DNA of 64,000 bases, from the NCBI GenBank assembly GCA_029243545.1, contig JAQWRV010000011.1, positions 248,001 to 312,000 of the forward strand, read 5' to 3'. Below, piece after piece: positions 30,954-46,288 of the stretch. This stretch comes from Rhodospirillaceae bacterium. Lineage in GTDB: Bacteria; Pseudomonadota; Alphaproteobacteria; Rhodospirillales; Rhodospirillaceae. The notes under the pieces are model-generated. The model was not told the DNA's origin. It ran no database searches and saw only the letters and a list, made by a program, of their open reading frames with translations. The translations under genes and the position numbers were made by a program. The first letter of the stretch is position 1. Each line of letters opens with the position of its first letter.

Positions 30954-31736
30954 TTAGGTTGTCCACGCGGGCGCGCGTTTCTCAACGAAAGCAGCAATCC
31001 CTTCTGTGCAATCGTCTTCCAGCATGTTCTGCGCCATTACGGCCGCAGCATAGGTGTAGCTGTCGGCCATAGGTTTCTCGATCTGCTCATAAAAGGCCTG
31101 CTTGCCGATGGATAATATCCGCGCTGACTTCGACTTAATTAGCCGGGCGAGAGCGTCTACTGATGCGTCCAGTTCATGATCGGGAACTGATGCGTTAATG
31201 AGGCCCGAGGCCTCAGCCTCTGCTGCTGACATGGGTTTTCCGGTCAGGAGCATCGCCATGGCCTTCTTGCGGTGCACAGTTCGGCTGATGGCAACAGAGG
31301 GCGTCGTGCAAAACAAACCGATGTTGACTCCTGGCGTGGCGAATGTTGCCGACTTGCCAGCAATAGCAAGGTCGGCTGTGGCTACAAGCTGGCATCCTGC
31401 TGCGGTCGCGACTCCGTGCACTTTAGCAATCACGGGTTGCGGCATGCGTATGAGCCGCATCATCAAGTCGGAACAACGGTCGAATAAAGTCTGCGTAGTG
31501 GAAACGTCTGAATTGTCCTTGAGTTCCTTCAAGTCATGACCGGCGCAGAATGCGGCCCCGGCGCCAGCCAGGACAATTACCCGCGCCGTATCATCGGCCG
31601 CGATAGACTCCAGCTCAGCCAGGATTGCGTCGATCATCGCCAAAGACAAAGCGTTGCGTGCCTTAGGGCGATTGAGTGTCAGGGTGCATATACCGTTGTC
31701 ATCCTGGCGTAGAACTAATAGGTCAGTTTTTGTCAT
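30954..31736 (-). CDS. Enoyl-CoA hydratase/isomerase family protein
   Basis: A 260-residue crotonase-fold protein. NRPKARNALSLAMIDAILAE and LAGAGAAFCAGHDLKEL provide the oxyanion-hole region. MPQPVIAKVHGVATAAGCQL provides the Gly pair of the second oxyanion strand, and ATPGVNIGLFCTTPSVAISR is the segment that in hydratases carries a catalytic Glu. Here that stretch lacks an obvious Glu, so hydration is not certain. I start at the ATG at 31736; a TTG 33 bases upstream overlaps the stop of the VOC gene before it. It is the last gene of the VOC array transcript. Confidence 0.85.
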   Translation of the reverse strand: MTKTDLLVLRQDDNGICTLTLNRPKARNALSLAMIDAILAELESIAADDTARVIVLAGAGAAFCAGHDLKELKDNSDVSTTQTLFDRCSDLMMRLIRMPQPVIAKVHGVATAAGCQLVATADLAIAGKSATFATPGVNIGLFCTTPSVAISRTVHRKKAMAMLLTGKPMSAAEAEASGLINASVPDHELDASVDALARLIKSKSARILSIGKQAFYEQIEKPMADSYTYAAAVMAQNMLEDDCTEGIAAFVEKRAPAWTT

Positions 31737-31749
31737 ATCCTGTGCCGCG

Positions 31750-32643
31750 TCACACGCGCGGGTCCTCAATGAGTTCCGTTAGCTCGCCAGCTGGCCCAAC
31801 AAACGTGGCCGCTCTTTTACCACAGTATAGGGCAATAGGTTCAGCGATGAAATTAACATCAAGGGAATCAAGATTATCCACACTAAACGATGCCATACTC
31901 ACGCCCGGTGGCAGTTGACCTTCCGCACACGGTCGCGCGTTGGTCCCCGTTGGGTATTGGTCTAGCTCGATGTTGTTGCCCTTTTCTTTCAGGCGCAAAA
32001 GACCCAGACGGTACGACGTGTCGATTGGGCGGCCTTGGGCCTCAGACACGAGATCTAAAACATAATCAATGTGCGGCATGCTGGCTAAGGAGAATGTATC
32101 GCCATAGAATTTTTCCAGTTCCGCAATGTTTGGTCCGGCCAGCACCATAACGAACGGCCGGTCTACTACACCTCGTGGCTTCGGCAGGGTCGACGTATCT
32201 CTGTCACCTGTTTCACAAGTGAGATAGATCACCTCTTCGCCAGGCCCTTTGTATTGTACTGCGCGGATTGACGATGTGCCGCCCATCAGGTTTTCGGGTC
32301 CTGAGACGTGAATGAAATCAGAGTCTTTCAAATATTCGAACAGACCGTCAACGTCATCGGCGATGATCTCTATGGCATTCCAGCCCCAAGTGGTCATGGC
32401 TTTGTAATTAGGTACCGGATCAATCTCGACGGCACGCAGGTACACATCATCTTTGGCGGCGGATTGAAGTGTGATGACGGGCCGGCCCGCTGTATTTAGC
32501 GTTCCCCAAGATTGGGCCAGCGACTCACCTATACTGGCTCGGTCTAATACCGAGTAGCCCAGCCATTTCGTGTACCAGCGCTCTACAGCATTGAGGTCCG
32601 GCACACCGATGGTTGCCATCTTAATGCGGCTGAGGAGGGGCAT
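31750..32643 (-). CDS. Two-module VOC (glyoxalase-fold) protein, array member 1, no leader
   Basis: A 297-residue cytoplasmic member of a family repeated six times in this region. Module one starts IKMATIGVPDLNAVERWYTK, followed by LAQSWGTLNTAGRP, VEIDPVPNYKAMTTWGWNAI and VIYLTCETGDRDTSTLPKPR. Module two starts PFVMVLAGPNIAELEKFYGD and ends QLPPGVSMASF, FVGPAGELTELIED. The position of the first metal-binding His of glyoxalases (two before the V-P-D strand end) is Met here. It ends just before the enoyl-CoA hydratase and begins ten bases after the next array member. The ligand and reaction are unknown. Confidence 0.8.
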   Translation of the reverse strand: MPLLSRIKMATIGVPDLNAVERWYTKWLGYSVLDRASIGESLAQSWGTLNTAGRPVITLQSAAKDDVYLRAVEIDPVPNYKAMTTWGWNAIEIIADDVDGLFEYLKDSDFIHVSGPENLMGGTSSIRAVQYKGPGEEVIYLTCETGDRDTSTLPKPRGVVDRPFVMVLAGPNIAELEKFYGDTFSLASMPHIDYVLDLVSEAQGRPIDTSYRLGLLRLKEKGNNIELDQYPTGTNARPCAEGQLPPGVSMASFSVDNLDSLDVNFIAEPIALYCGKRAATFVGPAGELTELIEDPRV

Positions 32644-32653
32644 CGGGTTGAAA

Positions 32654-33640
32654 CTACCGCGGCTCTTCGATGAGTTCAGTCAGCTCGCTGGCCGGACCGA
32701 TAAACGTCGCCGTCCGCCGCCCGCCGTATTCGATGATCGGGTCTGATATGAAGTCGATATCCACCACATCCAAGTCATCAATATTGAACGACGTCATCGC
32801 CACACCGGGCGGTAACTGCCCGTCTGCGCGCGGCCGCGGCCCAATGTCGGATGGGTATTCATCAAGCTCGATATTGTTGCCCCGTTCACGCAGGCGAATG
32901 AGGCCTAAGTTATACTCGTAATCCGCCGAGCGTCCTTGCATTTGAGAAATCAATCCGCCTTTAGAAATAAAGCGAAAGCCACCCTGTTTCATGTTGAAGG
33001 TTTCGGCGTAGAAGGATTCCATCGCATCAATGTCGCCGCCGGAGAGAATCATAATGAAAGGCCGGTCCACCGCGCCACGAGGGATGGGTAAGGTGGAAGC
33101 CTCCCGGTCGCCAGTCTCACAGGTGAGATAAATCACGTCCTCTGCAGGGCCAATGTATTGAGCCGCCCGAATGGACCCCATGCCGGCCGAGAGATTGTGA
33201 GGCCCACCAATATGCCGGAACGGCGACTTCTTCATGGTCTCATGCAATGCATCGATATCATCGACGATGATTTCGATGGCATTCCAGCCCCAGGTGGTAA
33301 TGGCTTTATAGCCTGGCACAGGGTCAATTTCGACGCCGCGGATGTACACATCGTCCTTGGCGTCGGACTGCATGGTGATAAACCGCCGCCCCGCCGTCTT
33401 GGGTGTGCCCCAAGATCGCGCCACGTCTTCACTGATGGTCGAGCGCTCAACTACTTCATACTTAAGCCAGGTGGTGTACCACTCTTCCAGAGTGTCGAGA
33501 TCGGGCGCGCCAATGGTCGCCATTTTGATGCGGCTTAAAATGGGCCTGGACTCCTGGCTAAATGCGAAACGCGGGAATGAAGACGCGGTGGCGGCTGTGC
33601 CACCGAGCACGAGAAACTGTTTGCGCGATAATTTCGACAT
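32654..33640 (-). CDS. Exported two-module VOC protein, array member 2
   Basis: A 328-residue paralogue with an N-terminal leader of the Tat type: SRKQFLVLGG (a twin-basic Arg-Lys variant) followed by an Ala-rich stretch and a cleavage region near FAFSQ. Module one reads IKMATIGAPDLDTLEEWYTT, then ARSWGTPKTAGRRFITMQSD and VEIDPVPGYKAITTWGWNAI. Module two reads PFIMILSGGDIDAMESFYAE and ends TATFIGPASELTELIEEPR. As in the other members, the usual first metal His is replaced by Met. The gene is separated by two bases from member 3, so the array is transcribed as one unit. Confidence 0.8.
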   Translation of the reverse strand: MSKLSRKQFLVLGGTAATASSFPRFAFSQESRPILSRIKMATIGAPDLDTLEEWYTTWLKYEVVERSTISEDVARSWGTPKTAGRRFITMQSDAKDDVYIRGVEIDPVPGYKAITTWGWNAIEIIVDDIDALHETMKKSPFRHIGGPHNLSAGMGSIRAAQYIGPAEDVIYLTCETGDREASTLPIPRGAVDRPFIMILSGGDIDAMESFYAETFNMKQGGFRFISKGGLISQMQGRSADYEYNLGLIRLRERGNNIELDEYPSDIGPRPRADGQLPPGVAMTSFNIDDLDVVDIDFISDPIIEYGGRRTATFIGPASELTELIEEPR

Positions 33641-33642
33641 GA

Positions 33643-34617
33643 CTAACGGGCCTCTTCAATCAACTCCACTATTTCTCCAGCGGGGCCGGTGAAAACTGCC
33701 GAACGCTTGCCGCCGTATTCGGTTATTGGCGCAGAGACAAAGTTTACATTCACGGCGTCCAGACTGTCCACGTTGAAGGTGACCATGGCGTTGCCTTGTG
33801 GCAGATGGCCGTTAGCACGAGGACGTGGTCCTGTGCCTTCAGGGTAGCCGTCGAACTCGATGGCATTGCCGCGCTCGCGCAGCCGGCCGATGCCCATGGT
33901 GAAGGAATGATCGTCCGGCAGACCCTGCGCTTTGGCGATGATGGGCACCGGGGTAGGGAAGGAGAAGCCTTTCGACATACCAAAGGCTGCACTGTAAAAC
34001 GCCATGGTGCCGTCGACGCTACCGCTGGCCAAAATCACAATGTTGGTGCGGCCCACGTCTTCGCCCGGGTCGGGCAGGGCAGACTCGGAACGGTCGCCGG
34101 TTTCACTATTGAAGTAGAGCACTTCTTCCGCTGGGCCGACGTACTGCACGGCGCGGATGGATGATGTTCCACCACCCAGGTTGGCCGGGCCACCAACGTG
34201 CCGGAATGGAGAAGTTTTCATACGTTCATGCAGGTCGTCCGGGTCGTTGACGATGATTTCGAAAGAGTTCCAGCCCCATGTGGTCATGGCCTTGTAACCA
34301 TTGACTGGCTCGACCTCGACAGCGCGGATGAGCACGTCTTCTCCGGTGGCCGGCTGCAACAAAACAAACGGCCGGCCGGCAGCGGCGGGCGTGCCCCATG
34401 AGCTTGCCATTTCCTTACTGACAGTGGACTTCTCCACCACCCGATGTCCCAGCCATGTGGTGTACCAGCGCTCTACAGCATCCACACTGGGCGCGCCAAT
34501 GGTGACGAATTTAATCCGGCTAATCACCATGTTAGTGTCTTGGGCAAGGGGCAGTGATGGTTTCGTCAGCGCAGCGGCGCCCGCTAAGGTGAGAAATTGT
34601 TTTCGGGAGAGCTTCAT
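33643..34617 (-). CDS. Exported two-module VOC protein, array member 3
   Basis: A 324-residue paralogue. The leader begins MKLSRKQFLTLAGAAAL, nearly the same twin-basic motif as member 2, so these two probably arose from the most recent duplication. The modules start IKFVTIGAPSVDAVERWYTT and TNIVILASGSVDGTMAFYSA; MASSWGTPAAAGRPFVLLQP, MTTWGWNSFEIIVND and VFTGPAGEIVELIEEAR are conserved. The Asp of the VPDL/APDL strand turn is Ser here (APSVDA). Export through Tat would mean the protein folds, possibly with a bound ligand, before secretion. Function unknown. Confidence 0.8.
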   Translation of the reverse strand: MKLSRKQFLTLAGAAALTKPSLPLAQDTNMVISRIKFVTIGAPSVDAVERWYTTWLGHRVVEKSTVSKEMASSWGTPAAAGRPFVLLQPATGEDVLIRAVEVEPVNGYKAMTTWGWNSFEIIVNDPDDLHERMKTSPFRHVGGPANLGGGTSSIRAVQYVGPAEEVLYFNSETGDRSESALPDPGEDVGRTNIVILASGSVDGTMAFYSAAFGMSKGFSFPTPVPIIAKAQGLPDDHSFTMGIGRLRERGNAIEFDGYPEGTGPRPRANGHLPQGNAMVTFNVDSLDAVNVNFVSAPITEYGGKRSAVFTGPAGEIVELIEEAR

Positions 34618-34648
34618 CTTGTGCGTCCTTCTTTCAAAGCGCGTTCAA

Positions 34649-35113
34649 TTAATTGGCAACGATCGCGCGGACATTGATTTCCAGTTTGAGTTCAGGGATG
34701 GCGAGGGCGCTGACACCGATCACCATGGACACCGGCTTATGACCCGTGGGGAAGAAGTTGCGCACATCTTGATAAGCAGGCTGAGGGTCAATGTTGGCCA
34801 AGTCGACAATGAAAATCTGAATCTCAACCACGTCTTCGCGGGTCGCACCGGCGGCCTTCAGAGCAAGATCAATGTTTTCCCAGGTGAGTTTTGACTGCTC
34901 CGCCAAGGTTTCAGGAATAAACCCATCGGGTTTCAAACCAGCTTTACCGCCCAGCAGTATCATTTTGCCGCTGCCTTCAATGGTGACCACCTGAGAATAG
35001 CCGACCGATTGATCCAGCCCTTCCGGGTTCCAGCGCTTGATTTTAATTTCAGCCATGGCGTTAAATGGGATCCATATGGCCAAAGCGGCCAATGCAGTGA
35101 ATAGACGTTTCAT
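34649..35113 (-). CDS. Exported RidA/YjgF-family protein
   Basis: A 154-residue protein with a Sec-type signal peptide (MKRLFTALAALAIWIPFNAM, cleavage after AMA) followed by a RidA-like barrel: VVTIEGSGKMILLGGKAG, QSKLTWENIDLALKAAGATR, EDVVEIQIFIVDLANIDPQP and LKLEINVRAIV. The Arg that binds the carboxylate of imine substrates in RidA is not visible at the expected place (KPVSMVIGV rather than A-R-x-x-V), so enamine/imine deaminase activity is doubtful. It interrupts the VOC array between members 3 and 4. Its export is unusual for a family that normally works in the cytosol. Confidence 0.82.
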   Translation of the reverse strand: MKRLFTALAALAIWIPFNAMAEIKIKRWNPEGLDQSVGYSQVVTIEGSGKMILLGGKAGLKPDGFIPETLAEQSKLTWENIDLALKAAGATREDVVEIQIFIVDLANIDPQPAYQDVRNFFPTGHKPVSMVIGVSALAIPELKLEINVRAIVAN

Positions 35114-35132
35114 AATTTTGCCCTTCCCTCAT

Positions 35133-36134
35133 TTAAGTTAGTTCCTGTTCAATCAACTCGACCCACTCTCCGGCCGGACCAACAAAACTGGCAGCGCGCC
35201 CGCCACCGTACAGCACTTTCGGTGGCGCCATGAATGAAACATCAATGGCGTCAAAGTCGTTCGTCGCGAGACTCATCATCGATACGCCTGGTGGCAGCTG
35301 GCCTTTGGCACGGGGCCTGGGCCCTGAGAATTCAACCGGATAGGCATCAAATTCGATGCCGCTACCGTGCCTGGTGCCGCGGGCGCTGCCCATGGCGATG
35401 GCCCGGTCGCGGGAGTAGTCCAACGCATCAGCAACCACACGGACTTTGAATTCCATAAGGTCACCCAAACTCATACCAAGGACATTGTTATAAAACGCCC
35501 GGCTGGCTTTTATGTTAGGCGTGCCGACCACGGCATTGAAGATGCGGTCGACCAAGGAGTTGGCGGTTATCAATCCGAATTCGTTTTGACCAGTCATGTC
35601 ACTGGCAAAATAGAATACTTCCTCTCCCGGCCCCTTCATCTGCATGGCATGAACACTGGCGTAGGCTTCACTCAGTGGGCGCGGCTCACCAATCACCTCG
35701 AACCCTGCCGACAAAACCCGTTCGTTGACCTCATAGATATCCTTGGAAATCATTTCGATGGCGTTAAGGCCCCAGGTGCCCATGGCCTTGTACCCGGGCA
35801 CAGGGTCCACTTCGACAATGCGAATGCGGAACGTTCTGTCGCCACTTTCACAGCGCATCATGGCCCAAGGACGGCCCTGCATGGCGGGGGCGCCCCAGGA
35901 TGCAGCAACCTGCTCGCTCACTGTGCCTTTGTTGACTTCGGAAAGACCGATGGCTTTTTCATACATGGCCTGGGCAACGGCCACGTCCGGCACGCCGATG
36001 GTGGCGATCGCATGACCGATAATGGGATTACGCCGACCCGTTTCTTGAGCCTCGGTATTTGTGGTTGCGATCGCAGCCGCTGCAGCTGTGCCGGCCAAGA
36101 CACCACGTCTGGAAACGCTCGGTGTGGTGTCCAT
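35133..36134 (-). CDS. Exported two-module VOC protein, array member 4
   Basis: A 333-residue paralogue with a classical Tat leader, SRRGVLAGTAAAAAIATT. The modules start AIATIGVPDVAVAQAMYEKA and IFNAVVGTPNIKASRAFYNN. The family core is kept (AASWGAPAMQGRPWAMMRCE, VEVDPVPGYKAMGTWGLNAI, SFVGPAGEWVELIEQ), but it is more diverged than its neighbours, for example GLNAIEMISKD in place of GWNAIEII. It starts five bases after the stop of member 5. Unlike members 2 and 3, the leader has a full twin Arg, so the exported members fall into two leader types. Confidence 0.78.
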   Translation of the reverse strand: MDTTPSVSRRGVLAGTAAAAAIATTNTEAQETGRRNPIIGHAIATIGVPDVAVAQAMYEKAIGLSEVNKGTVSEQVAASWGAPAMQGRPWAMMRCESGDRTFRIRIVEVDPVPGYKAMGTWGLNAIEMISKDIYEVNERVLSAGFEVIGEPRPLSEAYASVHAMQMKGPGEEVFYFASDMTGQNEFGLITANSLVDRIFNAVVGTPNIKASRAFYNNVLGMSLGDLMEFKVRVVADALDYSRDRAIAMGSARGTRHGSGIEFDAYPVEFSGPRPRAKGQLPPGVSMMSLATNDFDAIDVSFMAPPKVLYGGGRAASFVGPAGEWVELIEQELT

Positions 36135-36139
36135 CGTTA

Positions 36140-37054
36140 CTACGGTCCTTCGACGAGTTCGATCAGCTCACCCACTGGGCCCCGGGCGGTCCGGCACCGC
36201 CCACCGCTGTAAGCAGCGCTTGGGTCGGTCACGGCGTCGCCGACAAAATCGAGATCAAACAAATCGATGTTGTCGACGGAAAACGATACCGTCGAACAGC
36301 CCGGCGGCAGTTGGCCGTCGGTCTGCGGGCGGGCGCCGTACTGGTCGCCATAACCATCGTACTCAATAAAATTGCCGGCTTGGCCGAGGAACATGAAGCC
36401 CATATCGAATACGTGATCTTTCGGTAGACTTTGCGCGTCGGCGATAACGCCGATGGGGCTGGTCATGTCTTCTTCCCGTTTCATCAGGAATTTATCGCAG
36501 TAATACGACTGCGTCTTATTAACGCCATTACCGGCAAGAATGACAATAAAGGGCCGGTCGATGAAAGATCCCGGTAAGGGCAACATTGAATCCTCTGCAC
36601 GTACCGTGTCACATGTGAGGTAAAGCACGTCACCTGCTGGGCCCAACACTTGCATGGCGTGAATGAAATTGAGGTCGCCGTCCAGCGGCGATGGCTCACC
36701 GATGATTTTGAACGGGCTGCTCAATAGTTTCTCATTCAGTTTGTAGACATCGTCGATGATAAGTTCGAACGCGTTCCAGCCGAGAGAGGTCATCGGCTTG
36801 TAGCCGGCAACCTCATCAATTTCAACGACGCGTAGGAATACGTCGGCGCCGCTTTCCGGTTGCATCACAATATAAGGACGCCCGGTCATGCTCGGTGTTC
36901 CCCATGACCCTGCCAGGCCGGCACTGATCTCGCCGCGTTCGCACACACTGTAGCTCAGCCACTCTGTGTACCAGCTTTCCACCAGCCCGATGTCGGGTGC
37001 GGCAACGGTGTTGATCTTCAGGCGTTTAAGCAGCGGCGTGGGGTCATCGGTCAT
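36140..37054 (-). CDS. Two-module VOC protein, array member 5, no leader
   Basis: A 304-residue paralogue without signal peptide, starting MTDDPTPLLKRLKINTVAAP, with AAGGAC about seven bases before the ATG. Core motifs are LAGSWGTPSMTGRPYIVMQP, VEIDEVAGYKPMTSLGWNAF, VLYLTCDTVRAEDSMLPLPG, PFIVILAGNGVNKTQSYYCD and QLPPGCSTVSFSVDNIDLFD. It lies between exported members 4 and 6, so cytoplasmic and exported copies alternate along the transcript. The first-strand residue equivalent to the metal His is Asn/Thr. Function unknown. Confidence 0.78.
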   Translation of the reverse strand: MTDDPTPLLKRLKINTVAAPDIGLVESWYTEWLSYSVCERGEISAGLAGSWGTPSMTGRPYIVMQPESGADVFLRVVEIDEVAGYKPMTSLGWNAFELIIDDVYKLNEKLLSSPFKIIGEPSPLDGDLNFIHAMQVLGPAGDVLYLTCDTVRAEDSMLPLPGSFIDRPFIVILAGNGVNKTQSYYCDKFLMKREEDMTSPIGVIADAQSLPKDHVFDMGFMFLGQAGNFIEYDGYGDQYGARPQTDGQLPPGCSTVSFSVDNIDLFDLDFVGDAVTDPSAAYSGGRCRTARGPVGELIELVEGP

Positions 37055-37084
37055 AACGAGTCCTTTTAAATCAGATGTGATCTC

Positions 37085-38074
37085 TCAGTTTTTTTCTTCA
37101 ATCAGTTCCAATAGCTCGCCCGCTGGGCCGACCACTGTCGCGGCACGGCTGTGGTAGGCGGCAATAGGCTCAGTAATAAAATCGAGCTTTATGTCACCCA
37201 GGTTTTTAACGGTCACGCTGGTTATGGCGACTCCCGGCGGCAGTTGTCCTTCATTGCTCGGCCGCGGGCCGGTGTGGTCGCCGTAGCCGTCCAGTTCGAA
37301 CAGGTTGCCGTGCTGTGCCAAACGCAACGTGGTGAGGGGACGCTCACTGCCAAGGGGCAGTCCTTGCGCAACGTTAATTAGGTCGACCGGCGAATTGCGG
37401 ATCGGGCCGCGCTCCATATCAAATGCATCGGCATAAAAATCCTGCAACGCCTGAATGTCAGGCCCGGCCACTACCATAATAAAAATACGGCCGATAAACG
37501 CGCCGGCGCGTGGCAGCAGCGAGTTGGTCCGGTCCCCGGTTTCCGCTGTCAGATACAACACATCTTCTGCAATACCTTTGAACTGGGTCGCGCGGATGGA
37601 CGGGTAGTTGGTTAAACCCGCGGGCCCACCCAAGTGCGTAAAAGGTGAGTCGACCAGCTTTTTGTAAACCGCATCAGGGTCGTCGCAGATGATCTCAATG
37701 GCGTTCCAGCCCCAGGTGGTCATGGCTTTGTAGTCGGGAACGGGATCTATCTCGACGGCACGGATATACACGTCGGCACCGCTTTCCGGCTGCATAACCA
37801 CATAGGGCCGCCCCGCCGAATTGGGGGCACCCCAAGACGCTGCGATGTCTGTGTCCACGTTGCCCCGCCCGACCACTTCATAACCGAGCCACTCATTATA
37901 GAGGGTTGGAATGGCGTCCAGGTCGGGCACACCGATGGTTGCCATCTTGAAGCGGTTTACTTTGGGCACGGTTGCCTCCTGCGCCGAAGTTTGAGACGAG
38001 GGAATGGTCGATGCGGCCGCTACAGCACCAGCTGCCCCCAAAGCGCCGCGCCGCGATACACCGTTTGTGCTCAT
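37085..38074 (-). CDS. Exported two-module VOC protein, array member 6
   Basis: A 329-residue paralogue beginning MSTNGVSRRGALGAAGAVAA, a Tat leader with full twin Arg. A longer frame begins 25 codons upstream inside the deacetylase gene and is rejected, because the ATG at 38074 gives a normal leader. The modules start FKMATIGVPDLDAIPTLYNE and IFIMVVAGPDIQALQDFYAD, with IAASWGAPNSAGRPYVVMQP, VEIDPVPDYKAMTTWGWNAI and TVVGPAGELLELIEE. It starts one base after the stop of the upstream deacetylase gene, which ties the VOC array to the ring-opening genes. Confidence 0.8.
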   Translation of the reverse strand: MSTNGVSRRGALGAAGAVAAASTIPSSQTSAQEATVPKVNRFKMATIGVPDLDAIPTLYNEWLGYEVVGRGNVDTDIAASWGAPNSAGRPYVVMQPESGADVYIRAVEIDPVPDYKAMTTWGWNAIEIICDDPDAVYKKLVDSPFTHLGGPAGLTNYPSIRATQFKGIAEDVLYLTAETGDRTNSLLPRAGAFIGRIFIMVVAGPDIQALQDFYADAFDMERGPIRNSPVDLINVAQGLPLGSERPLTTLRLAQHGNLFELDGYGDHTGPRPSNEGQLPPGVAITSVTVKNLGDIKLDFITEPIAAYHSRAATVVGPAGELLELIEEKN

Positions 38075-38075
38075 A

Positions 38076-39002
38076 TCATTTGGCCTGGTTCTTGAACGCG
38101 TCGAGAATTTCCGACCCGGTGGCCGACCACACCCCGTCGTGTCCAGCAATCCAGCCCAGGAGTTTGTCGAGGTATTTGACCCGGTAATGCAGGCCCATGA
38201 CGTATGGCGTCAGCACAATGGAGAGGACGCGCCCGCCATATCTGTCAGTCTCGCCATAAAGCACATTGAAGGCGTCTTCCATTTCTTCGACGAATTCGTC
38301 TTCGTTGTGCTTCTTGTCGAGAATGATGGTCCGATCCCACAACTCACTGCCGTGGGGCATAGCCCACAAATTGCCACCGGCTTCTTTCATTTGATAGGGC
38401 ATGTCGTCATTGCCCCAGTCGCAGACATAGTCGATGCCGTTGGCAGCGAGGTGTTGCATGGTGTTCCAGCTTTGCGACTTGGCTGGCGACCACCAGCCCG
38501 TCACCGGCTGGCCACAGGCTTCGCGTAACACGCCGAGGCTTTCTTTGATCAGCGCCTGTTCTTCGCTGTCGTCCATGCCGCCGTAATGCAGTTTGCCCAT
38601 GTCGACGCCGTGGCCGATGACTTCATCGCCGCGTTCGTTAAGCTTTTTGATCAGATACGGATAGCGCTCCGCGACTTTGGAATTCACCGCTGCCGTGGCT
38701 TTCAGGCCATGCTTGTCGAGTACCCGCCAAAGGCGCTGCACACCCACTCGGTTGCCGTAATCCCGCGTCGTAAAGTGGCGCAAGTCGGGATAGGGCGTAA
38801 CCATGCCGCCCGGCGCTTTGAAGGGCTTAGCTGGTTGATCGTGGGGGAAAAACTCCAGTGAGTAGCTAATCCACAGCGCCAGTTTGGCTCCATTGGGCCA
38901 CGTGATGTTGGGGCGTTTTTGCAGGATCGACCAATCATAGAGGTCGTGGTCCATGCCATAACGGCGATTGGGGTACTCTAAATATTCTTTATCGAGTGTC
39001 AT
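38076..39002 (-). CDS. Polysaccharide-deacetylase-fold amidohydrolase (PuuE/cyclic imidase-like), copy 1
   Basis: A 308-residue NodB-fold protein of the subgroup with PuuE-type allantoinase and bacterial cyclic imidases rather than chitin or peptidoglycan deacetylases. Evidence is the start LYDWSILQKRPNITWPNGAK, LALWISYSLEFFP in place of the TFDD motif, RDYGNRVGVQRLWRVLDKHG, EVIGHGVDMGKLHYGGMD (the metal His motif region) and GWWSPAKSQSWNTMQHLAAN. Members hydrolyse cyclic amides and imides in the cytosol. It is adjacent to a paralogue (copy 2), an amidase and a hydratase-lyase set, which is why I favour a ring-opening role. No signal peptide. Confidence 0.8.
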   Translation of the reverse strand: MTLDKEYLEYPNRRYGMDHDLYDWSILQKRPNITWPNGAKLALWISYSLEFFPHDQPAKPFKAPGGMVTPYPDLRHFTTRDYGNRVGVQRLWRVLDKHGLKATAAVNSKVAERYPYLIKKLNERGDEVIGHGVDMGKLHYGGMDDSEEQALIKESLGVLREACGQPVTGWWSPAKSQSWNTMQHLAANGIDYVCDWGNDDMPYQMKEAGGNLWAMPHGSELWDRTIILDKKHNEDEFVEEMEDAFNVLYGETDRYGGRVLSIVLTPYVMGLHYRVKYLDKLLGWIAGHDGVWSATGSEILDAFKNQAK

Positions 39003-39005
39003 AGC

Positions 39006-39923
39006 TTAGCCCCCCTTCCGTGAGTTGATATCGGCGAGGCATTCGTCGTAACAGTTTTCGTAATAGTACTCGGCAATTTCACGCCCAGTGGCAATCCATA
39101 CATCTTCTTTGCTGTGTCCTGTGATGTACTCGAGCGCATCCTCAAAGCCTCCGATGCGATGCGGATGACCCACAGCGTAAGCATGCAGTGGAATGCACAT
39201 TACCGTGCCGCAGTCTTCGCCCTCTATCAGCAGTTGGTCGAATTGATCCTTGATCATCTGGCCGTAGCGGCGCGGTGTACCGAAGTAGGAGTTGTAGACA
39301 ATGATGTCGTTGATTTCCAAAGAGTACGGCATGGAGATCAACCGCCCGCTATTGACGTTCACCGGTTGCGGCGTGTCGTCCTGGAATAGATCACAGGTAT
39401 ATAGGAAGCCGTATTCGGCCAGCAGGTCCATGGTCCGTTCGGTATGGGTGAGAGCAGGGGCTAGGTAACCAGCCAATTTTTGCCCCGTCGCTTTCATCAC
39501 GGATTCCAAACTATCCTCCATGATGGCGCGTTCTTGTGCTTCATCCATCTCGTAGGAATAGCGGGTGTTATAAATCCCGTGGGAGAAGAACTCCCAATTG
39601 CGGGCCCTGGTCTCTTCAATCAGTTCCGGGTGATGTTCAATCAAGCCGATGCTGAGAGAGATAGAGCCCCGGACATTATATTTGTCCATGACGTCCATCA
39701 TGCGCCAATGGCCTGCGCGGTTGCCGTAATCACGGCTAGAGGCCAGCAACACATCCGGGTGCGGGCGGGGCCAGGCTACACGCTTCGGATTGATAGGCGG
39801 GTCGAGTTCGTAAAACTCGATGTTGGGGGCGACCCAGAACGCGATTTTTGCGCCGTTGGGCCAGCGGATTTTAGGGCGGCCTTCGTAAGGCCAATAGTCA
39901 TAGAGTCCGAGATCGGGTTTCAC
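39006..39923 (-). CDS. Polysaccharide-deacetylase-fold amidohydrolase (PuuE/cyclic imidase-like), copy 2
   Basis: A 305-residue paralogue of the preceding gene product. It has LYDYWPYEGRPKIRWPNGAK, IAFWVAPNIEFYELDPPINP, SRDYGNRAGHWRMMDVMDKY, WEFFSHGIYNTRYSYEMDEA (S-H-G with later Tyr in place of the second motif His) and GYLAPALTHTERTMDLLAEY. The start is GTG at 39923 with GGGAGAGG upstream. Three bases separate it from copy 1. The two copies may form a heteromer or act on different ring substrates; this is inference. Absence of a leader places it in the cytoplasm. Confidence 0.8.
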   Translation of the reverse strand: MKPDLGLYDYWPYEGRPKIRWPNGAKIAFWVAPNIEFYELDPPINPKRVAWPRPHPDVLLASSRDYGNRAGHWRMMDVMDKYNVRGSISLSIGLIEHHPELIEETRARNWEFFSHGIYNTRYSYEMDEAQERAIMEDSLESVMKATGQKLAGYLAPALTHTERTMDLLAEYGFLYTCDLFQDDTPQPVNVNSGRLISMPYSLEINDIIVYNSYFGTPRRYGQMIKDQFDQLLIEGEDCGTVMCIPLHAYAVGHPHRIGGFEDALEYITGHSKEDVWIATGREIAEYYYENCYDECLADINSRKGG

Positions 39924-39971
39924 GCACCTCTCCCTTTAAAGCGTAATGAACAAAAAGCGTGTGCTGCGGTG

Positions 39972-40634
39972 TTAGTTCTTGCCGCGCAACCAGTCCTTCA
40001 CCGTGCCCACAGACTCAACGTCGCAATACTTGAGCGCGAGGTCGGTGAGGTTGGCGAAGTGGTAACTCTCGTGTTTGTCGGCGACGCATTCCTCAACAAT
40101 TGTTGTGCGGTAGCCGCGCGACAAGCTATCGACGCCCATGGCGCGTACGCAGCCCGATGTGGAGCCGCCGGTGATCAGCAGGGTGTCGACTTGATGGAAT
40201 ATCAACAGCGATTGCAGGTTGGTTTCAAAAAACGGAGACGGCATTTTCTTGTCCATGACAATGTCGCCGGGCTGGCGGTCTATCCGGTCGTCAAATTCAG
40301 AACGTTCTGATTTGTATTTGATGTTCTGCAAGCTGTCTGGGGTGTCGGTGCGCGTGCCCCATACACCGCAATCCTCGCCGGACTCTACATAGGCGACGTA
40401 AGTCCATATCACGGGCCAGTCCTTTTCCCGCATCAACGCGGCCAGCTCATTAATGTACTGAATCTGGTTCGGGTCATTCTCGTAGGCCGTCTTGAACAGG
40501 TCGGTCCGGGTGTAGGCCTTTTGAACGTCGATGTTGATCAAAGCCGCTTTGTTGCCGAAGCCGAATTTGGCCCGGGCCGGATTGGCTTTAACAGCTTCGT
40601 ATAGTTCGCGGGCTGTCTTATCGGACAGTTCCAT
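39972..40634 (-). CDS. Isochorismatase-family amidohydrolase (N-carbamoylsarcosine/maleamate amidase type)
   Basis: A 220-residue cysteine hydrolase. The catalytic triad is readable as Asp36 (LINIDVQKAY), Lys129/130 (MDKKMPSPF) and Cys162 (GGSTSGCVRAMGVDSLSRGY), with the usual cis-peptide before the Cys segment. Relatives include N-carbamoylsarcosine amidase, maleamate amidase (NicF), RutB and nicotinamidase; all release ammonia from an open-chain amide. Its position between the two ring-opening-type genes and the lyase/hydratase genes supports a role on a half-amide intermediate. AAGGGA lies about ten bases before the ATG. Confidence 0.85.
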   Translation of the reverse strand: MELSDKTARELYEAVKANPARAKFGFGNKAALINIDVQKAYTRTDLFKTAYENDPNQIQYINELAALMREKDWPVIWTYVAYVESGEDCGVWGTRTDTPDSLQNIKYKSERSEFDDRIDRQPGDIVMDKKMPSPFFETNLQSLLIFHQVDTLLITGGSTSGCVRAMGVDSLSRGYRTTIVEECVADKHESYHFANLTDLALKYCDVESVGTVKDWLRGKN

Positions 40635-40810
40635 GGCAGTGGGTCCCTTCTAACTTATATGTGTGCGTTCTTTTTCACCGCAGGCGCGGTCTTGCTTCTT
40701 GCCGCTGTCGCAGCGTTATTAGGCCTGAGAATAGCGTTGAGTCGCCGAGAATCAAACCGTCCAGGCGAAAGGCTTTTTCCGGCGTGATTTACCCGGTTGA
40801 GGGGTGACGC

Positions 40811-41701
40811 CTACTCAGCGGCCTTCATGGCCTGAGGATCATACTGCTTACCACTTTCCAGCAATTCTGCGGTTCCCAGCAGGTTGTTAAGGCCGTTGAA
40901 ATCAAACATCCGGTCCCGTACCTGGGCGGTGGAGCCATCTTCCTGGAGGGCTTTGAGGTAGTCCTGACCGGCCTTGGCGATGATCCGAACCATGGCGCCT
41001 GGGAAAATCACGAATTTGAAACCCAGAGCGCCCAGATCCGCAGCCGATGACAACGGCGTTTTGCCGCCTTCGACCATGTTGGCGAGCAATGGGACCCTCC
41101 CGGCGAATCGATCACCAGCCGCTTTCAATTCTTCCATGGATCTTGGTGCCTCGATGAACAGCATGTCGGCGCCTGCCTCCACATAGGCTTCAGCCCGGTC
41201 CAATGCTGGGTTGAAGCCTTCGACGGCAATGGCATCGGTGCGCCCGACGATCACTGTGTTCTCATCGAGGCGCGCGTCCTGAGCCGCCTTGATTTTGCCG
41301 ACCATCTCTTCGGTCGAAACCAAGGTTTTGCCATCCAGATGGCCGCAGCGCTTTGGTGTTGTCTGATCTTCAAGCTGAATGCCCGACGCGCCGGCCCGCT
41401 CAAACATGCGCATGGTGCGTTGAACGTTGAGCGCATTGCCGAAGCCGGTGTCTGCATCCACAACGAACGGGATCTCAATGCGATCGCGAATTTTCGATAC
41501 TGTATCCGCTACTTCCGAGCAGGTGGTAAGGCCGATGTCGGACCGTCCCAAGCGGGAATAAGCGATACTGGCGCCGCCAATGTAGGCCGCATCGAAACCG
41601 GCTTGCTCCACCAACAGCCCAGTGAGGCCGTCATACATACCTGGTGCAACAATCGTGTCCGGACTGGTCAGAAGTTCTCGTAAGCGTTTTGTATGACTCA
41701 T
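40811..41701 (-). CDS. Isocitrate lyase/PEP mutase-family C-C lyase (methylisocitrate or dimethylmalate lyase-like)
   Basis: A 296-residue TIM-barrel. PFVVDADTGFGNALNVQRTM gives the Mg-binding Asp pair, IQLEDQTTPKRCGHLDGK gives the active-site motif K-R-C-G-H with Cys119, and VGRTDAIAVEGFNPALDRAE completes the core. The intact KRCGH Cys favours a lyase (methylisocitrate, dimethylmalate) over oxaloacetate decarboxylase or PEP mutase. The start overlaps the LeuD-like gene stop by four bases. In Eubacterium barkeri, dimethylmalate lyase works directly after an aconitase-type dimethylmaleate hydratase, the same pairing as here. Confidence 0.87.
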   Translation of the reverse strand: MSHTKRLRELLTSPDTIVAPGMYDGLTGLLVEQAGFDAAYIGGASIAYSRLGRSDIGLTTCSEVADTVSKIRDRIEIPFVVDADTGFGNALNVQRTMRMFERAGASGIQLEDQTTPKRCGHLDGKTLVSTEEMVGKIKAAQDARLDENTVIVGRTDAIAVEGFNPALDRAEAYVEAGADMLFIEAPRSMEELKAAGDRFAGRVPLLANMVEGGKTPLSSAADLGALGFKFVIFPGAMVRIIAKAGQDYLKALQEDGSTAQVRDRMFDFNGLNNLLGTAELLESGKQYDPQAMKAAE

Positions 41702-42219
41702 TTTGGTGCCGCTCCTGTTTTCAATTCACCGGCATCAATTTTCTTTTTGAGATGCGGCATTAAGCCGCCATCGCCGATCATTTCCATAAGATGTTCGGGA
41801 ATGGGCGAGACTTTATAAGAATTCCCAGTCGTGACGTTTTCTACCACTCCGGCGATGGGGTCGACGGTCACCTGGTCACCGGCGTTAATTTCGTCTGCTT
41901 TCGGGAAAATCAACGCCGGCACACCGAAGTTCAACGTATTGCGGTAATAGATGCGGGCATAGGATTTGGCGAGTATCGCGCCCACTTTCAGGTGCAAGAA
42001 AGACAGGGCTGCCTGTTCTCGGGCAGAGCCGACACCGAAGTTGCGTCCGGCCACCACAATATCGCCGGGCTGCACATTGGGCGCGAACTCGGGGTTCACC
42101 GCTTCCAGGCAATGGCTGGCCATCACGTCCATGGACTCTTTGAAGTAGATACCCGGCGCCATTACATCCGAATTGATCTCGTCTCCAAAGGTCCAGGCCT
42201 TTCCAGATGGGACACTCAT
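41698..42219 (-). CDS. Aconitase-superfamily hydratase, small subunit (LeuD-like)
   Basis: A 173-residue swivel domain. WTFGDEINSDVMAPGIYF matches the G-D-x-I-x-T/S-D start, VVAGRNFGVGSAREQAALSF is the substrate-binding loop (G-x-N-F-G-x-G-S-(S/A)-R-E), and SYARIYYRNTLNFGVPALIF is the C-terminal helix-strand. It pairs with the large subunit encoded directly upstream, overlapping it by four bases. The pair should interconvert a substituted maleate and the corresponding malate. Because leuB/leuA are absent and a lyase follows, leucine synthesis is unlikely. Confidence 0.9.
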   Translation of the reverse strand: MSVPSGKAWTFGDEINSDVMAPGIYFKESMDVMASHCLEAVNPEFAPNVQPGDIVVAGRNFGVGSAREQAALSFLHLKVGAILAKSYARIYYRNTLNFGVPALIFPKADEINAGDQVTVDPIAGVVENVTTGNSYKVSPIPEHLMEMIGDGGLMPHLKKKIDAGELKTGAAPK

Positions 42220-43487
42220 GACAACATATTCCGGGGATCAACGATCTCCCCCGCCACGGCCGCCGCCGCCACTGTGTAAGGCGAGCCGAGATAAACGAAG
42301 GCCTTGTTAGATCCCATACGGCCTTGGAAGTTGCGATTGGTGGAAGAGATGCACACCTCACCTTCAGCGATGATGCCAGCACCCAAACCAGCGCAAGCGC
42401 CACATCCAGATGGCAAAATCAGGCCGCCCGCTTCCGTAATGGTTGCCAGGGTGCCGTCGGCAGCGGCTTCTCGCATGATTTTTTTCGACGACGGCGCCAC
42501 CATGAGCCGGGTGCCTGATTTGACTTGGCGGCCCCTCAGCACAGACGCGACCATGTGAAGGTCCGTCAGCTTGGCGCCGACACAGGCGCCGATGTACGCC
42601 TGATCAACTTTAATATGATCTTTCTCGAAGTCTTGTGCGGCGCCTGAGTTGGATGGTCTGTGTGGCGCGGCAACTTGGGGGGCTAGGGTGCTAGAATTAA
42701 ACGCATGGTCCGCGCAAAATGTTGCGTCGTCATCGCTACGCCACTCAAGCGCATCAGCGGCGGGCTCGGTGCCGCCATCGCGTATGGCTTGTAATGTAAT
42801 TTCATCGGGGGCAACAAGCCCCGTCTCAGCGCCCAGCTCTGCCGCCATGTTGGTCAGCACCATCCGTTCCATCATCGACATATTGCGAATGCTCTTACCG
42901 CCAAACTCAATGGCTTTGAAGGCGTTTTCCATGCCCAGTTCACGGGCGAGAAACAGCATAATGTCTTTGGCCGTAACGCCCGGCCCGAAAGCGCCTGACC
43001 AATCCACCTTGATCGTCTCCGGCACGACGGACCAGATCTCTCCCGTGATCACTACGCCAGTCATTTCAATGGCACCGAAGCCGGCCATGTAGCATCCGAA
43101 GGCGCCGCCCATGGTCGAGTGGCTATCACCGCCGGTACAGAACATGCCTGGCTGTAAATGACCATTTTCAGCCATCAGCACATGGCAAATGCCTTCCATG
43201 TCATAAAAATGTTTGATGTCGAATTTCTTTACGAAGTCGCGCGTCAGCTTGAGGATCGCGGCGCTTTGTGGGTCGGCGGCGGGCACGAAATGATCGGCCA
43301 CCACCACCACTTTATCTTTGTCGTAGACACCGACGCCGAGTTGATCTAGCCGCGGCCAGATTTTACGGGGTCCGCCAGAATCCAAGATCATCGCCAGGTC
43401 GACGGCGCAGGTGACGATCTCGCCCGGTGCGACGCTGTCACGCCCTGACGCCCGCGCCATGATCTTCTGTATAAGGGTATTGCCCAT
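42216..43487 (-). CDS. Aconitase-superfamily hydratase, large subunit (LeuC-like)
   Basis: A 423-residue protein binding a [4Fe-4S] cluster through Cys302 (AYIGACVGAKLTDL), Cys362 and Cys365 (PSGCGACAGLG). FCTGGDSHSTMGGAFGCYMA and IKVDWSGAFGPGVTAKDIML are typical. The first cluster motif is IGACVGAK instead of the LeuC I-G-S-C-T-N-x-R, so substrate contacts differ from isopropylmalate isomerase. The group includes homoaconitase-like and 2,3-dimethylmaleate hydratase large subunits. It is the first gene of the minus-strand run; about 205 bases separate it from a divergent methyltransferase gene and should carry both promoters. Confidence 0.9.
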   Translation of the reverse strand: MGNTLIQKIMARASGRDSVAPGEIVTCAVDLAMILDSGGPRKIWPRLDQLGVGVYDKDKVVVVADHFVPAADPQSAAILKLTRDFVKKFDIKHFYDMEGICHVLMAENGHLQPGMFCTGGDSHSTMGGAFGCYMAGFGAIEMTGVVITGEIWSVVPETIKVDWSGAFGPGVTAKDIMLFLARELGMENAFKAIEFGGKSIRNMSMMERMVLTNMAAELGAETGLVAPDEITLQAIRDGGTEPAADALEWRSDDDATFCADHAFNSSTLAPQVAAPHRPSNSGAAQDFEKDHIKVDQAYIGACVGAKLTDLHMVASVLRGRQVKSGTRLMVAPSSKKIMREAAADGTLATITEAGGLILPSGCGACAGLGAGIIAEGEVCISSTNRNFQGRMGSNKAFVYLGSPYTVAAAAVAGEIVDPRNMLS

Positions 43488-43692: not shown

Positions 43693-44931
43693 ATGTCTAT
43701 TGCCTTGCCCCCGCCCTATGACCGGCTCAATCGGCACTCTATGCTGCCTGAAGCAAGCCACGACGAGTCGGCGCGGATGAATTTCCTGGCCAACATGAAC
43801 GCGCACATCGGCACGGCACTGTTTCCCGGCGTTTCTACGGCATACGAGAATTGCGCTAAACCGGCATTTGAAAAGGAGCACGGTCGTGCACCCGCCACGT
43901 CTATTGAAGTGCGCGAGGCCATCAAACCCGAGCCGGCTTTTCAATTCTGGTCGGCTTTTCGCCTTAATACTCAGGAGACCCGCCAACAGGTTGGACGGGA
44001 ATTTGTGTTCCGGCGGATTGATGGCCTGATTGCAAAAGCCAAAGAGATGAATGAGGGCAGTAAACGGCTGCGGCTCGATTCCTCGGTGGAAATTCCCCGC
44101 TATATTTCAGAGGTCGATAACCATGTAATGCCCGGTAGTTATTACACCGAAGTCCTACCGGACGATATCTCAGCACCGGCCAATTATGAATCGGGTCACT
44201 ACACCACGGTCGCGGGTGGCACCGGACCGAAGAGCGATCTCGTCGGGCGCACCATGGCGAAATGGCTGAAAGACACGCGACCAGACTTCGCTCCAAAACG
44301 CATTATCGATATGGGCGGCGGTGCGGGTTTTAACACTTTACCCATTGCGGAAGCCTATCCCGATGCAGAAGTCTGGGTGGTCGATGTTGCTGCGCCCATG
44401 CTGCGCTATGGTCACGCCCGCGCTAAAGAGATGGGCGTTGACAACGTTATCTTTCAGCAGGCCGACGCCGAAACGGTGGATATAGAGCCCGACAGTGCTG
44501 ACCTCGTGCTCTCGGCCATGTTCTTCCACGAAACGTCGACCAAAGCAGTGAAGGGGCTGCTGCAAAAGTGTAACGACCTGCTCGTACCCGGCGGCATGAT
44601 GCTGCATATGGAACAGCCCAACTTCGACCCTGACACCACGCCGTTCGAGAAATTCGTCCGCGACTGGGACTCATGGTATAACGCTGAACCGTTCTGGGCA
44701 AAGCTGCACACCATGGATGTTATCGACGAAATGGTGGCTGCCGGCTTTGAGGCAGGCTCGACCTTCGAAGCCTCGGCGCCGGTGGACCGCACCAGCGATA
44801 CCTATCCCGCTTGGGCCAAATCAGTCAGCCGCCACTCTCACGAGGCGAAGATGCGGGAAACGGCGGAAAAGCCGAATCCTAAGAAAGCTGGGGGCATGTA
44901 CATGTTTGGAGCCTATAAACAGGCCTCCTGA
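43693..44931 (+). CDS. Class I SAM-dependent methyltransferase with long N-terminal domain, copy 1
   Basis: A 412-residue protein. The last 220 residues form a Rossmann methyltransferase: motif I RIIDMGGGAGFNTLPIAE (about 203-220), acidic loop VWVVDVAAPMLRYGHARAKE, VDIEPDSADLVLSAMFFHE and LLVPGGMMLHMEQPNF. The first 200 residues are helical (ESARMNFLANMNAHIGTALF, EVREAIKPEPAFQFW) and shared only with the copy at 60857-62035 in this window. The ribosome-binding site is weak. The substrate is unknown. It opens the plus-strand arm with glutaryl-CoA dehydrogenase and FAD oxidase genes. Confidence 0.85.
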   Translation: MSIALPPPYDRLNRHSMLPEASHDESARMNFLANMNAHIGTALFPGVSTAYENCAKPAFEKEHGRAPATSIEVREAIKPEPAFQFWSAFRLNTQETRQQVGREFVFRRIDGLIAKAKEMNEGSKRLRLDSSVEIPRYISEVDNHVMPGSYYTEVLPDDISAPANYESGHYTTVAGGTGPKSDLVGRTMAKWLKDTRPDFAPKRIIDMGGGAGFNTLPIAEAYPDAEVWVVDVAAPMLRYGHARAKEMGVDNVIFQQADAETVDIEPDSADLVLSAMFFHETSTKAVKGLLQKCNDLLVPGGMMLHMEQPNFDPDTTPFEKFVRDWDSWYNAEPFWAKLHTMDVIDEMVAAGFEAGSTFEASAPVDRTSDTYPAWAKSVSRHSHEAKMRETAEKPNPKKAGGMYMFGAYKQAS

Positions 44932-45040: not shown

Positions 45041-46288
45041 ATGGCCGCAGAACATTCGGCGGAAACGCCATCCGCTACGCCTGCCAAATCAGGGGCAAAA
45101 TCACTGGCCACAAAATGGGGTAAGTTTGTTTGGGAGGACCCGTTCCTAATCGCAGACCTGCTGACCGAAGAAGAGCGTATGGTGAGGGATTCCGCCCGCG
45201 CCTTTGCCCAAGACAAACTTCAGCCCCGCATCATCGAAGCCTTCCGATCTGAAACCTATGATCCTGATCTCTACCCTGAGATGGGTGCCCTCGGCTTGCT
45301 CGGCGCGACAGCGCCCGAGACCTACGGCGGCTCTGCCTTAGGGCATGTGGCCTATGGACTTATCGGCCGGGAAATTGAGAAAGTGGATTCCGGTTACCGC
45401 TCCATGATCAGCGTGCAATCCTCATTGGTGATCTATCCCATCACCGCCTATGGCTCTGAGAAACAGCACCAGAAATATCTGCCAGGCCTTATCAAAGGTG
45501 AGTTGGTGGGTTGTTTCGGTCTCACCGAACCAGACTCCGGTTCCGATCCGGGCGGCATGGCCACGCGCGCGACAAAAACCGACGGCGGCTATGTGCTCAA
45601 CGGCACGAAGATGTGGATTTCCAATTCTCCCGTCGCCGATGTTTTCGTCATCTGGGCCAAAACCGAAGACGATGTTATCCGTGGCTTTGTTTTGGAGAAG
45701 GGGGCGGAGGGCCTCTCAGCGCCGAAGATCGAAGGCAAGTTGTCTCTGCGCGCTTCTATCACCGGCGAAATTGTTATGGACAATGTCGAAGTGGGTGAAG
45801 ATGCGTTGCTGCCCAATGTCCAAGGTCTCAAAGGTCCGTTTGGCTGTCTCAACAAAGCACGCTACGGCATTGCCTGGGGCACCATGGGTGCGGCGGAATT
45901 TTGCTGGCATTCAGCGCGGCAATACACACTGGACCGCATTCAGTTCGGCAGGCCGTTGGCGCAGAACCAGCTCATTCAAAAGAAGCTCGCCGACATGCAA
46001 ACCGAAATCACACTAGGGTTGCTCGCGGCGCTGCGTGTGGGGCGCATGATCGACGCCGGGCAGTGTGCACCGGAAGACATCTCCATCATCAAACGCAACA
46101 ACGCCGGTAAGGCGCTTGATATTGCGCGCATGTCGCGGGACATGCACGGCGGCAACGGCGTAAGCGATGAGTTTCACATCATGCGGCATGCCATGAACCT
46201 TGAAGCCGTCAACACCTATGAAGGCACACACGATGTGCACGCGCTTATTCTGGGCCGCGCGCAAACCGGCTTACAAGCGTTTTTCTAG
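45041..46288 (+). CDS. gcdH: Glutaryl-CoA dehydrogenase
   Basis: GcdH oxidises and decarboxylates glutaryl-CoA to crotonyl-CoA, passing electrons to ETF. The 415-residue protein has the acyl-CoA dehydrogenase signatures [20 protein letters not shown] and [15 protein letters not shown]. The GcdH-like block is [20 protein letters not shown] and [20 protein letters not shown]. The catalytic Glu394 lies in [17 protein letters not shown]. About 25 Ala/Ser/Lys-rich residues extend the N terminus. Glutaryl-CoA arises from lysine, tryptophan or aromatic degradation; no other gene of those routes is visible next to it, so a related acyl-CoA could be the real substrate. Confidence 0.88.

Follow-up and report, generated by a model that had tools for sequence, protein, structure and literature searches.

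In a 64,000-nucleotide stretch of a Rhodospirillaceae bacterium genome (contig JAQWRV010000011.1; this whole stretch is hereafter the window), six open reading frames of the minus strand span exactly positions 38076-43487. An earlier note on this DNA had described them as six co-directional genes of a degradation pathway for cyclic imides or substituted maleimides, and both the genes and the families it named were borne out by the listing of open reading frames, Pfam and NCBIfam. In transcription order, they are:

42216-43487, minus strand: LeuC-like, hydratase large subunit (423 aa; Pfam Aconitase; homoaconitase/isopropylmalate isomerase family)
41698-42219, minus strand: LeuD-like, hydratase small subunit (173 aa; Pfam Aconitase_C; loop Lys27)
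40811-41701, minus strand: PrpB/isocitrate lyase-family lyase, proposed 2-methylhomoisocitrate-type lyase (296 aa; Pfam PEP_mutase)
39972-40634, minus strand: isochorismatase-family amidase, proposed half-amide (maleamate-type) hydrolase (220 aa; Pfam Isochorismatase)
39006-39923, minus strand: NodB1, PuuE-type protein of NodB fold, proposed cyclic imidase (305 aa, GTG start; Pfam Polysacc_deac_1)
38076-39002, minus strand: NodB2, also of PuuE type, proposed as an accessory protein or partner subunit (308 aa; Pfam Polysacc_deac_1)

LeuC and LeuD overlap by 4 bp, as do LeuD and the lyase gene, and the following gaps measure 176, 48 and 3 bp. The set does not end where the earlier note had placed its limits: the co-directional run, its further gaps measuring -20 to 31 bp, extends as far as 30954, the six genes being the first part of a 14-gene run closed by an enoyl-CoA hydratase gene, and a glutaryl-CoA dehydrogenase (GCDH) gene lies divergently at 45041-46288.

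The best NCBIfam family of both NodB proteins is the allantoinase PuuE, and scores of 128 (NodB1) and 104 bits (NodB2) against a cutoff of 424.6 mean that neither is assignable as PuuE itself. The profile search with NodB1 returned five matches in total, including 1z7a (5e-41), 3cl6 (1.5e-39) and 3qbu (4e-19); NodB2 also matches PuuE and its relatives best, in sequence and in fold, and not chitin-type deacetylases. AlphaFold models of the single chains (predicted local distance difference test values of 82.2 for NodB1 and 81.5 for NodB2) gave template-modelling (TM) scores of 0.74-0.79 to 3cl6/1z7a and of about 0.38-0.56 to the listed carbohydrate-esterase deacetylases; for NodB1, these were 0.78 to 3cl6 and about 0.38-0.51 to the listed chitin/peptidoglycan deacetylases. 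Residue conservation was read from 101 rows for NodB1, pooled from two collections of loci, with at least three contigs entered twice (L039/L089, L040/L133, L045/L147, judged by their equal lengths). Carbohydrate esterases bind metal through a His-x3-His motif, which is absent from NodB1: the second His position is Asn119 in all 101 rows, and the motif-1 acid lies in NIEF. A chitooligosaccharide deacetylase assignment, which the earlier note had named as fatal to its reading, is rejected, PuuE being nearest in sequence and predicted fold.

H115, N119 and H247 of NodB1 occur in every one of the 101 rows and E36 in 100, the remaining row being unread there; from the alignment with PuuE, these four residues are proposed to be catalytic. 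In NodB2, the first of the corresponding His is retained in 64 of 94 rows and the second in 35; at the latter position, the protein of the window carries Thr. Because these conserved His have been lost in many relatives, NodB2 is probably not the catalyst, and the pair, previously taken for two hydrolases, would be one hydrolase and its partner. In the text available from PMC9304392, HxnM and the Pseudomonas putida cyclic imide hydrolase are given as known cyclic imidases of NodB fold, and the available text of PMC10967932 describes PuuE as active without metal.

The Asp-Lys-Cys triad of the amidase (D36, K129 and C162) is invariant in 14 of 14 relatives and aligns with 26st, 4l07 and 1nba. 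Its nearest solved relative is N-carbamoylsarcosine amidohydrolase (8e-29), followed by 4l07 (2e-25); it also matches 4l08 and 3ot4, which, together with 4l07, we take to be maleamate amidases.

LeuC scores 433 bits with the NCBIfam hacA_fam model (cutoff 385.7) and LeuD 166 bits with the LeuD/DmdB family (cutoff 109), both above cutoff, and the Fe-S cysteines 302, 362 and 365 of LeuC are invariant in eight of eight relatives. The homoaconitase equivalog HacA_Meth was not reached (379.6 bits, cutoff 550). A role in leucine biosynthesis was rejected, as LeuC also falls short of the LEU2 equivalog cutoff and the genome has other LeuC-like frames of 470-488 aa, besides an aconitase-size frame of 921 aa. 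In homoaconitase, an Arg of the substrate loop recognises the extra carboxylate. The corresponding position of LeuD, Lys27, is Arg in homoaconitase 2pkp and Val in isopropylmalate isomerase 3vba. Most relatives have Y-[FML]-K or M-M-K as the motif of this loop. Of 31 relatives of at least 44% identity, 30 have Lys27, the single exception being a Val in L053 (54%); the more distant L094 (38%) carries Val and the likewise distant L052 Tyr, and L164 has Arg. The available part of PMC7308503, citing Jeyakanthan 2010, describes this loop as the determinant of substrate preference.

Best matches of the lyase are 2-methylisocitrate lyases, with PrpB 1mum at 1.6e-56 against 6e-30 for the PA4872 decarboxylase, and the fungal 3fa3, titled 2,3-dimethylmalate lyase, at 5.3e-50; the NCBIfam prpB score (301.4 bits) is below its cutoff of 354.4. 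The KRCGH cysteine, C119, and F182 are retained. Among relatives of at least 45% identity, this Cys occurs in 35 of 36 rows (one unread); F182 is found in 36 of 36 relatives, and G235 in 35 of 36, where PrpB has Leu (YPLSAFR). In PrpB, the Phe leaves space for a methyl group; a literature search on PrpB specificity residues found no paper. Oxaloacetate decarboxylases, the group whose kinship would have spoken against the earlier proposal, lack the KRCGH catalytic Cys, and that assignment is rejected on the better match to PrpB and the retained Cys.

Conservation was then followed in 80 named loci, anchored on NodB1 by a profile search of named genomes; this sample leans to close relatives because only the best of more matches were taken. 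With identity thresholds of at least 55% for the amidase, 34% for NodB2, and 45% for LeuC and for the lyase, the amidase was present in 75 loci, NodB2 in 73, the lyase in 30, LeuC in 25 and all six genes in 21. The association of the six genes exceeds chance, and the set does recur elsewhere, as the earlier note's reading required. The order LeuC-LeuD-lyase-amidase-NodB1-NodB2 is identical in L039, L044, L045 and L047; the amidase gene is inverted in L046, and in L053 the sequence stops within NodB1 and no amidase was seen. Seven of the 80 loci have no NodB2: four stop at NodB1 or shortly beyond it, and three with room for it, all from Bacteroidota (L091, L100, L138), hold amidase and NodB1; the scanned neighbours of L138 and L091 included no subsequent pathway step.

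In a sample of 240 same-class genomes, 51, the window's own included, have NodB1 matches at E <= 1e-30. Fourteen other same-class genomes hold matches of 54-71% identity, and six of these also hold a LeuC ortholog, which adjoins the NodB genes at the loci inspected. Hosts of NodB1 loci include metagenome-assembled genomes of Rhodospirillaceae and Bacteroidota, Caulobacter, Brevundimonas, Niveispirillum, Nitrospirillum, Henriciella and Gammaproteobacteria, and 26 plasmid records carry relatives at E <= 1e-60. Moreover, in other lineages, the same core of NodB and amidase genes is adjoined by a second, non-orthologous LeuC/LeuD pair with CoA-transferase and HMG-CoA-lyase-like genes. This alternative module is complete in six of 14 loci examined (L042, L098, L120, L134, L144, L148) and is also found on Acidiphilium and sphingomonad plasmids; L184, L185 and L190 likewise have this second LeuC/LeuD type beside the core. 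Two non-orthologous hydratase/lyase sets beside one core suggest that the core yields an unsaturated diacid to be hydrated and cleaved. Overall, we consider it likely that this conserved catabolic set carries out chemistry of the general class of imide opening, half-amide hydrolysis, hydration and cleavage.

A further indication of the substrate comes from the divergent neighbour of the six genes:

45041-46288, plus strand: glutaryl-CoA dehydrogenase (full-length match to characterised GCDHs)

This protein matches human GCDH 1sir (4.2e-170) and 3gnc (3.4e-179) far above other acyl-CoA dehydrogenases, and scores 214 bits with the NCBIfam Desulfococcus-type model, below the cutoff of 470. It is the sole such copy in the genome, the next best reaching 30% identity. 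Of the 80 loci, 25 have LeuC, and 12 of these show a GCDH gene as its divergent neighbour (12 of the 22 with at least 3 kb upstream); among the 55 loci that lack LeuC, one, L086, has a linked GCDH gene (Fisher p 9e-7, kinship ignored). The intergenic distance is 93-214 bp in eight loci and 1.4-2.0 kb in four. Among the 13 LeuC loci that lack GCDH, three offer less than 0.4 kb of sequence upstream. The base rate is 67 GCDH copies in 64 of 115 genomes; since the gene is normally single-copy, chance proximity to LeuC would be rare, and in G014 the LeuC-linked GCDH is a second copy. In a tree of 37 GCDH rows, the linked copies need three label changes (3-4 in bootstrap trees, 12.6 in shuffles), and none of 200 bootstrap trees has just one change; the LeuC-linked GCDHs lie in several lineages of this tree, whose bootstrap is unsettled.

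Plasmid p1 of Burkholderia plantarii carries amidase-NodB1-NodB2-MFS and, divergently, GntR-LeuC-LeuD-FAD dehydrogenase-lyase-porin-ETF-GCDH-CoA-transferase. Its GCDH has 66% identity, and this region is the only one of ten plasmid regions (L182-L187, L189-L192) with GCDH-grade similarity. The best family of its CoA-transferase is succinate--glutarate CoA-transferase NF052585 (542 bits, next family 318), which is also that of the CoA-transferase of a Caulobacter locus (499.5 bits, next 290). As both are under the cutoff of 750, these transferases are glutarate-CoA-transferase-like and not members of the family.

We propose the following route. NodB1, with NodB2, would open the imide ring to a half-amide, from which the isochorismatase-family amidase would free ammonia, leaving methyl, carboxyethyl maleate (2-methyl-cis-homoaconitate). 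The LeuC/LeuD-type [4Fe-4S] hydratase would add water, presumably in this direction, to give 2-methylhomoisocitrate, and the PrpB-like lyase would split it into pyruvate and glutarate. A CoA-transferase, none having been found near the window's genes, would activate glutarate to glutaryl-CoA, which GCDH would convert to crotonyl-CoA for beta-oxidation. If glutarate is the product, the maleimide must carry a carboxyethyl group, and a carboxyethyl together with a methyl on the other carbon (for a pyruvate partner, as in PrpB) leads to hematinic acid. The order of chemical steps put forward in the earlier note (ring opening, half-amide hydrolysis, hydration, cleavage) fits the conservation of the set and the nearest relatives of each protein, from which the activities are predicted. 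Its choice of alkyl maleimides as substrate does not hold up as well: the linked GCDH and CoA-transferase genes and the loop Lys of LeuD favour a carboxyethyl maleimide over dialkylmaleimides. We therefore tentatively regard the set as a catabolic operon whose main substrate is a carboxyethyl-bearing maleimide. The most likely one is hematinic acid, the maleimide with a methyl and a carboxyethyl group, a reading to which we give slightly less than an even chance. What we observed are the gene identities, the conservation of the set, the conserved residues and the GCDH linkage, and from these we infer all reactions and the substrate.

Oxidation of chlorophyll and heme gives hematinic acid and maleimides. 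According to the part of PMC7318184 available, hematinic acid is reported from plants, senescent leaves and lake sediments, and its amounts in leaves resembled those of other pyrrolic products, with maleimides not detected. A bacterial heme enzyme releasing hematinic acid is known from a title cited in PMC8669743. Our literature searches found no described pathway of bacterial hematinic-acid or maleimide catabolism, and no paper on this gene set; the proposal would thus combine known enzyme families with a predicted substrate for which the literature searched describes no pathway.

The same enzymes could instead serve a maleimide that carries two alkyl groups, or an alkyl and a vinyl group (methylethylmaleimide or dimethylmaleimide, for example), and would then yield, e.g., pyruvate and butyrate or propionate. 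The enzyme chemistry would be identical, and the Val that replaces the loop Lys in L053 and L094 fits an uncharged side chain; however, the linked GCDH, the glutarate-type CoA-transferase and the loop Lys would have no role for a dialkyl acid, and the available text of PMC7318184 gives hematinic acid, not maleimides, as what leaves yielded. We consider this alternative unlikely. The NodB proteins and the amidase might also open a hydantoin- or ureide-type ring, by an N-carbamoyl amino acid route, with hydratase and lyase serving a separate substrate. This would suit the nearest relatives of the amidase (N-carbamoylsarcosine amidohydrolase) and of the NodB proteins (PuuE allantoinase), as well as the three-gene core lacking LeuCD in most of the 80 loci. 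Nevertheless, the second, unrelated LeuC/LeuD module with HMGL-like lyase and CoA-transferase beside the same core makes it quite improbable, as the core product seems to need an aconitase-type hydratase.

It is likewise quite doubtful that the genes are a broad scavenging set for cyclic imides (succinimide, maleimide, saturated dihydro-imides) with no single natural substrate, given that succinimide and maleimide need no dedicated hydratase, lyase or GCDH. On the other hand, an FAD dehydrogenase of fumarate reductase/TcuA type, a possible substituted-succinate desaturase, recurs beside the core, and imidases of this fold, cyclic imide hydrolase and HxnM, hydrolyse several imides, as the available part of PMC9304392 states. 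Lastly, if the NodB proteins were deacylases of another small amide, the cluster could belong to an unrelated hydroxy-acid or tricarboxylate pathway, and in genome G447 the LeuCD-lyase genes, which have no NodB genes with them, adjoin genes for a GntR regulator and a tricarboxylate receptor of TctC type. The adjacency of NodB1 and amidase in 75 of the 80 loci and the PuuE-like fold and residues render this very unlikely.

Several observations weigh against hematinic acid catabolism as such. The closest solved relative of the amidase is not a maleamate amidase, and the model cutoffs of prpB, PuuE and SugCT are all missed. In 55 of the 80 loci, no LeuC of this kind lies within 10 kb, and two other genomes (L176, L177) hold relatives of LeuCD(-lyase) that are not accompanied by NodB genes; in G316, it is LeuCD that stands without NodB. 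Ten of the 22 evaluable LeuC loci have no adjoining GCDH, the loop Lys is also present at loci without a linked GCDH, and the well-supported branches of the GCDH tree force only one change, its bootstrap being unsettled. In addition, GCDH serves general lysine breakdown, and no CoA-transferase was seen among the window genes scanned.

The remaining genes of the surroundings are:

30954-31769, minus strand: enoyl-CoA hydratase, end of the co-directional run (PRK08139, 377 bits, cutoff 313)
31750-38074, minus strand: part of the same run, with six genes for VOC/glyoxalase-like proteins and one for an exported RidA-like protein (34649-35113)
43693-44931, plus strand: S-adenosylmethionine (SAM) methyltransferase, flanked by the hydratase genes and GCDH; its family recurs near the core

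The enoyl-CoA hydratase could use crotonyl-CoA. Four of the six tandem VOC/glyoxalase-like proteins have twin-arginine-like N-termini, most have no family match, and the VOC/RidA-like genes of the run are kept in the window's own clade (L079, L080, L082-L084). Two other frames were considered for glutarate activation and discarded: 16541-17785, a candidate CoA-transferase, has no Pfam match, and 26646-28184 (minus strand), a candidate acyl-CoA synthetase, is assigned to malonyl-CoA synthase by its NCBIfam model (737 bits, cutoff 558). Relatives of the latter are retained downstream in L082 and L083.

Around the core in other genomes, the fumarate-reductase/TcuA-like FAD dehydrogenase adjoins it in L183, L184, L187, L189 and L090 and could desaturate a substituted succinate derived from dihydro-imides. 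2-Oxoacid:ferredoxin oxidoreductase genes lie near it in L040, L097, L103, L105, L111, L119, L131, L133 and L151. Elsewhere in the window's genome, a paralogous amidase-NodB pair (L069, G000:C23:192750-193607; 33% and 40% identity) perhaps acts on a different ring.

From 43693 to 64000, the window also holds methyltransferases (43693, 60857), FAD_binding_4 oxidases (46441, 55350), a flavin monooxygenase (62785), an alpha/beta hydrolase (57821) and a cupin (59633). Members of several of these families are again encoded close to the core in Brevundimonas (L127, L141), Niveispirillum (L113), pJE1 (L185) and pSA1 (L191). Relatives of a carbon-nitrogen hydrolase (50784-52553, plus strand) lie directly downstream of NodB2 in Henriciella-/Parvularcula-type loci (L112, L118, L149, L150). 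A bolder and rather unlikely idea is that the 30-64 kb stretch is a tetrapyrrole-mineralisation island, in which Tat-exported VOC-family proteins, the exported RidA-like protein, FAD oxidases, the flavin monooxygenase, methyltransferases and hydrolases would act outside the cytoplasm to degrade bilins or remnants of chlorophyll to monopyrrolic imides, the six genes taking hematinic acid to pyruvate and glutarate. If so, bacteria would have a complete pathway for using the carbon and nitrogen of these pigments, heme and chlorophyll. Independently of the island, if the hematinic-acid reading of the six genes is right, the set would provide marker genes and a route for the recovery of pigment-waste carbon and nitrogen by Caulobacter, Brevundimonas, sphingomonads, marine Rhodospirillaceae and others. 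It would also give functions to genes that many genomes list under the names 'polysaccharide deacetylase', 'isochorismatase' and '3-isopropylmalate dehydratase'.

Among known systems, nicotinate fermentation in Eubacterium barkeri employs dimethylmaleate hydratase (DmdAB) and 2,3-dimethylmalate lyase to form propionate and pyruvate. There, too, a LeuC/LeuD-type hydratase precedes an isocitrate lyase-family enzyme on a substituted maleate/malate, a likeness of reaction type; however, that pathway has no imidase/amidase step, and in the present set the GCDH linkage and the Lys of the loop point to a triacid. With PrpB of the 2-methylcitrate cycle, the lyase shares family, C119 and F182, but it lies under the prpB cutoff, has Gly for Leu in 35 of 36 relatives, and is partnered by a hydratase of the homoaconitase family. 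That hydratase has the family, Fe-S cysteines and loop layout of homoaconitase and isopropylmalate isomerase, and differs in its degradative gene context and in missing the HacA and LEU2 cutoffs. Maleamate amidase (NicF/Ami) and N-carbamoylsarcosine amidohydrolase belong to the same isochorismatase family, with the same Asp-Lys-Cys triad; the amidase described here forms a subfamily of its own, the carbamoylsarcosine enzyme being the nearest one solved. Finally, PuuE allantoinase and the cyclic imide hydrolases (P. putida CIH and HxnM) have the NodB fold and a small-ring substrate in common, as described in the available parts of PMC3084791, PMC10967932 and PMC9304392. PuuE is the nearest fold, yet the NodB proteins studied here fall under the PuuE model cutoff and occur as a pair, one of which has lost His. 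CIH and HxnM are placed nearer the metal-binding 3qbu type in the available text of PMC9304392, and 3qbu is a weaker match for the present NodB proteins.

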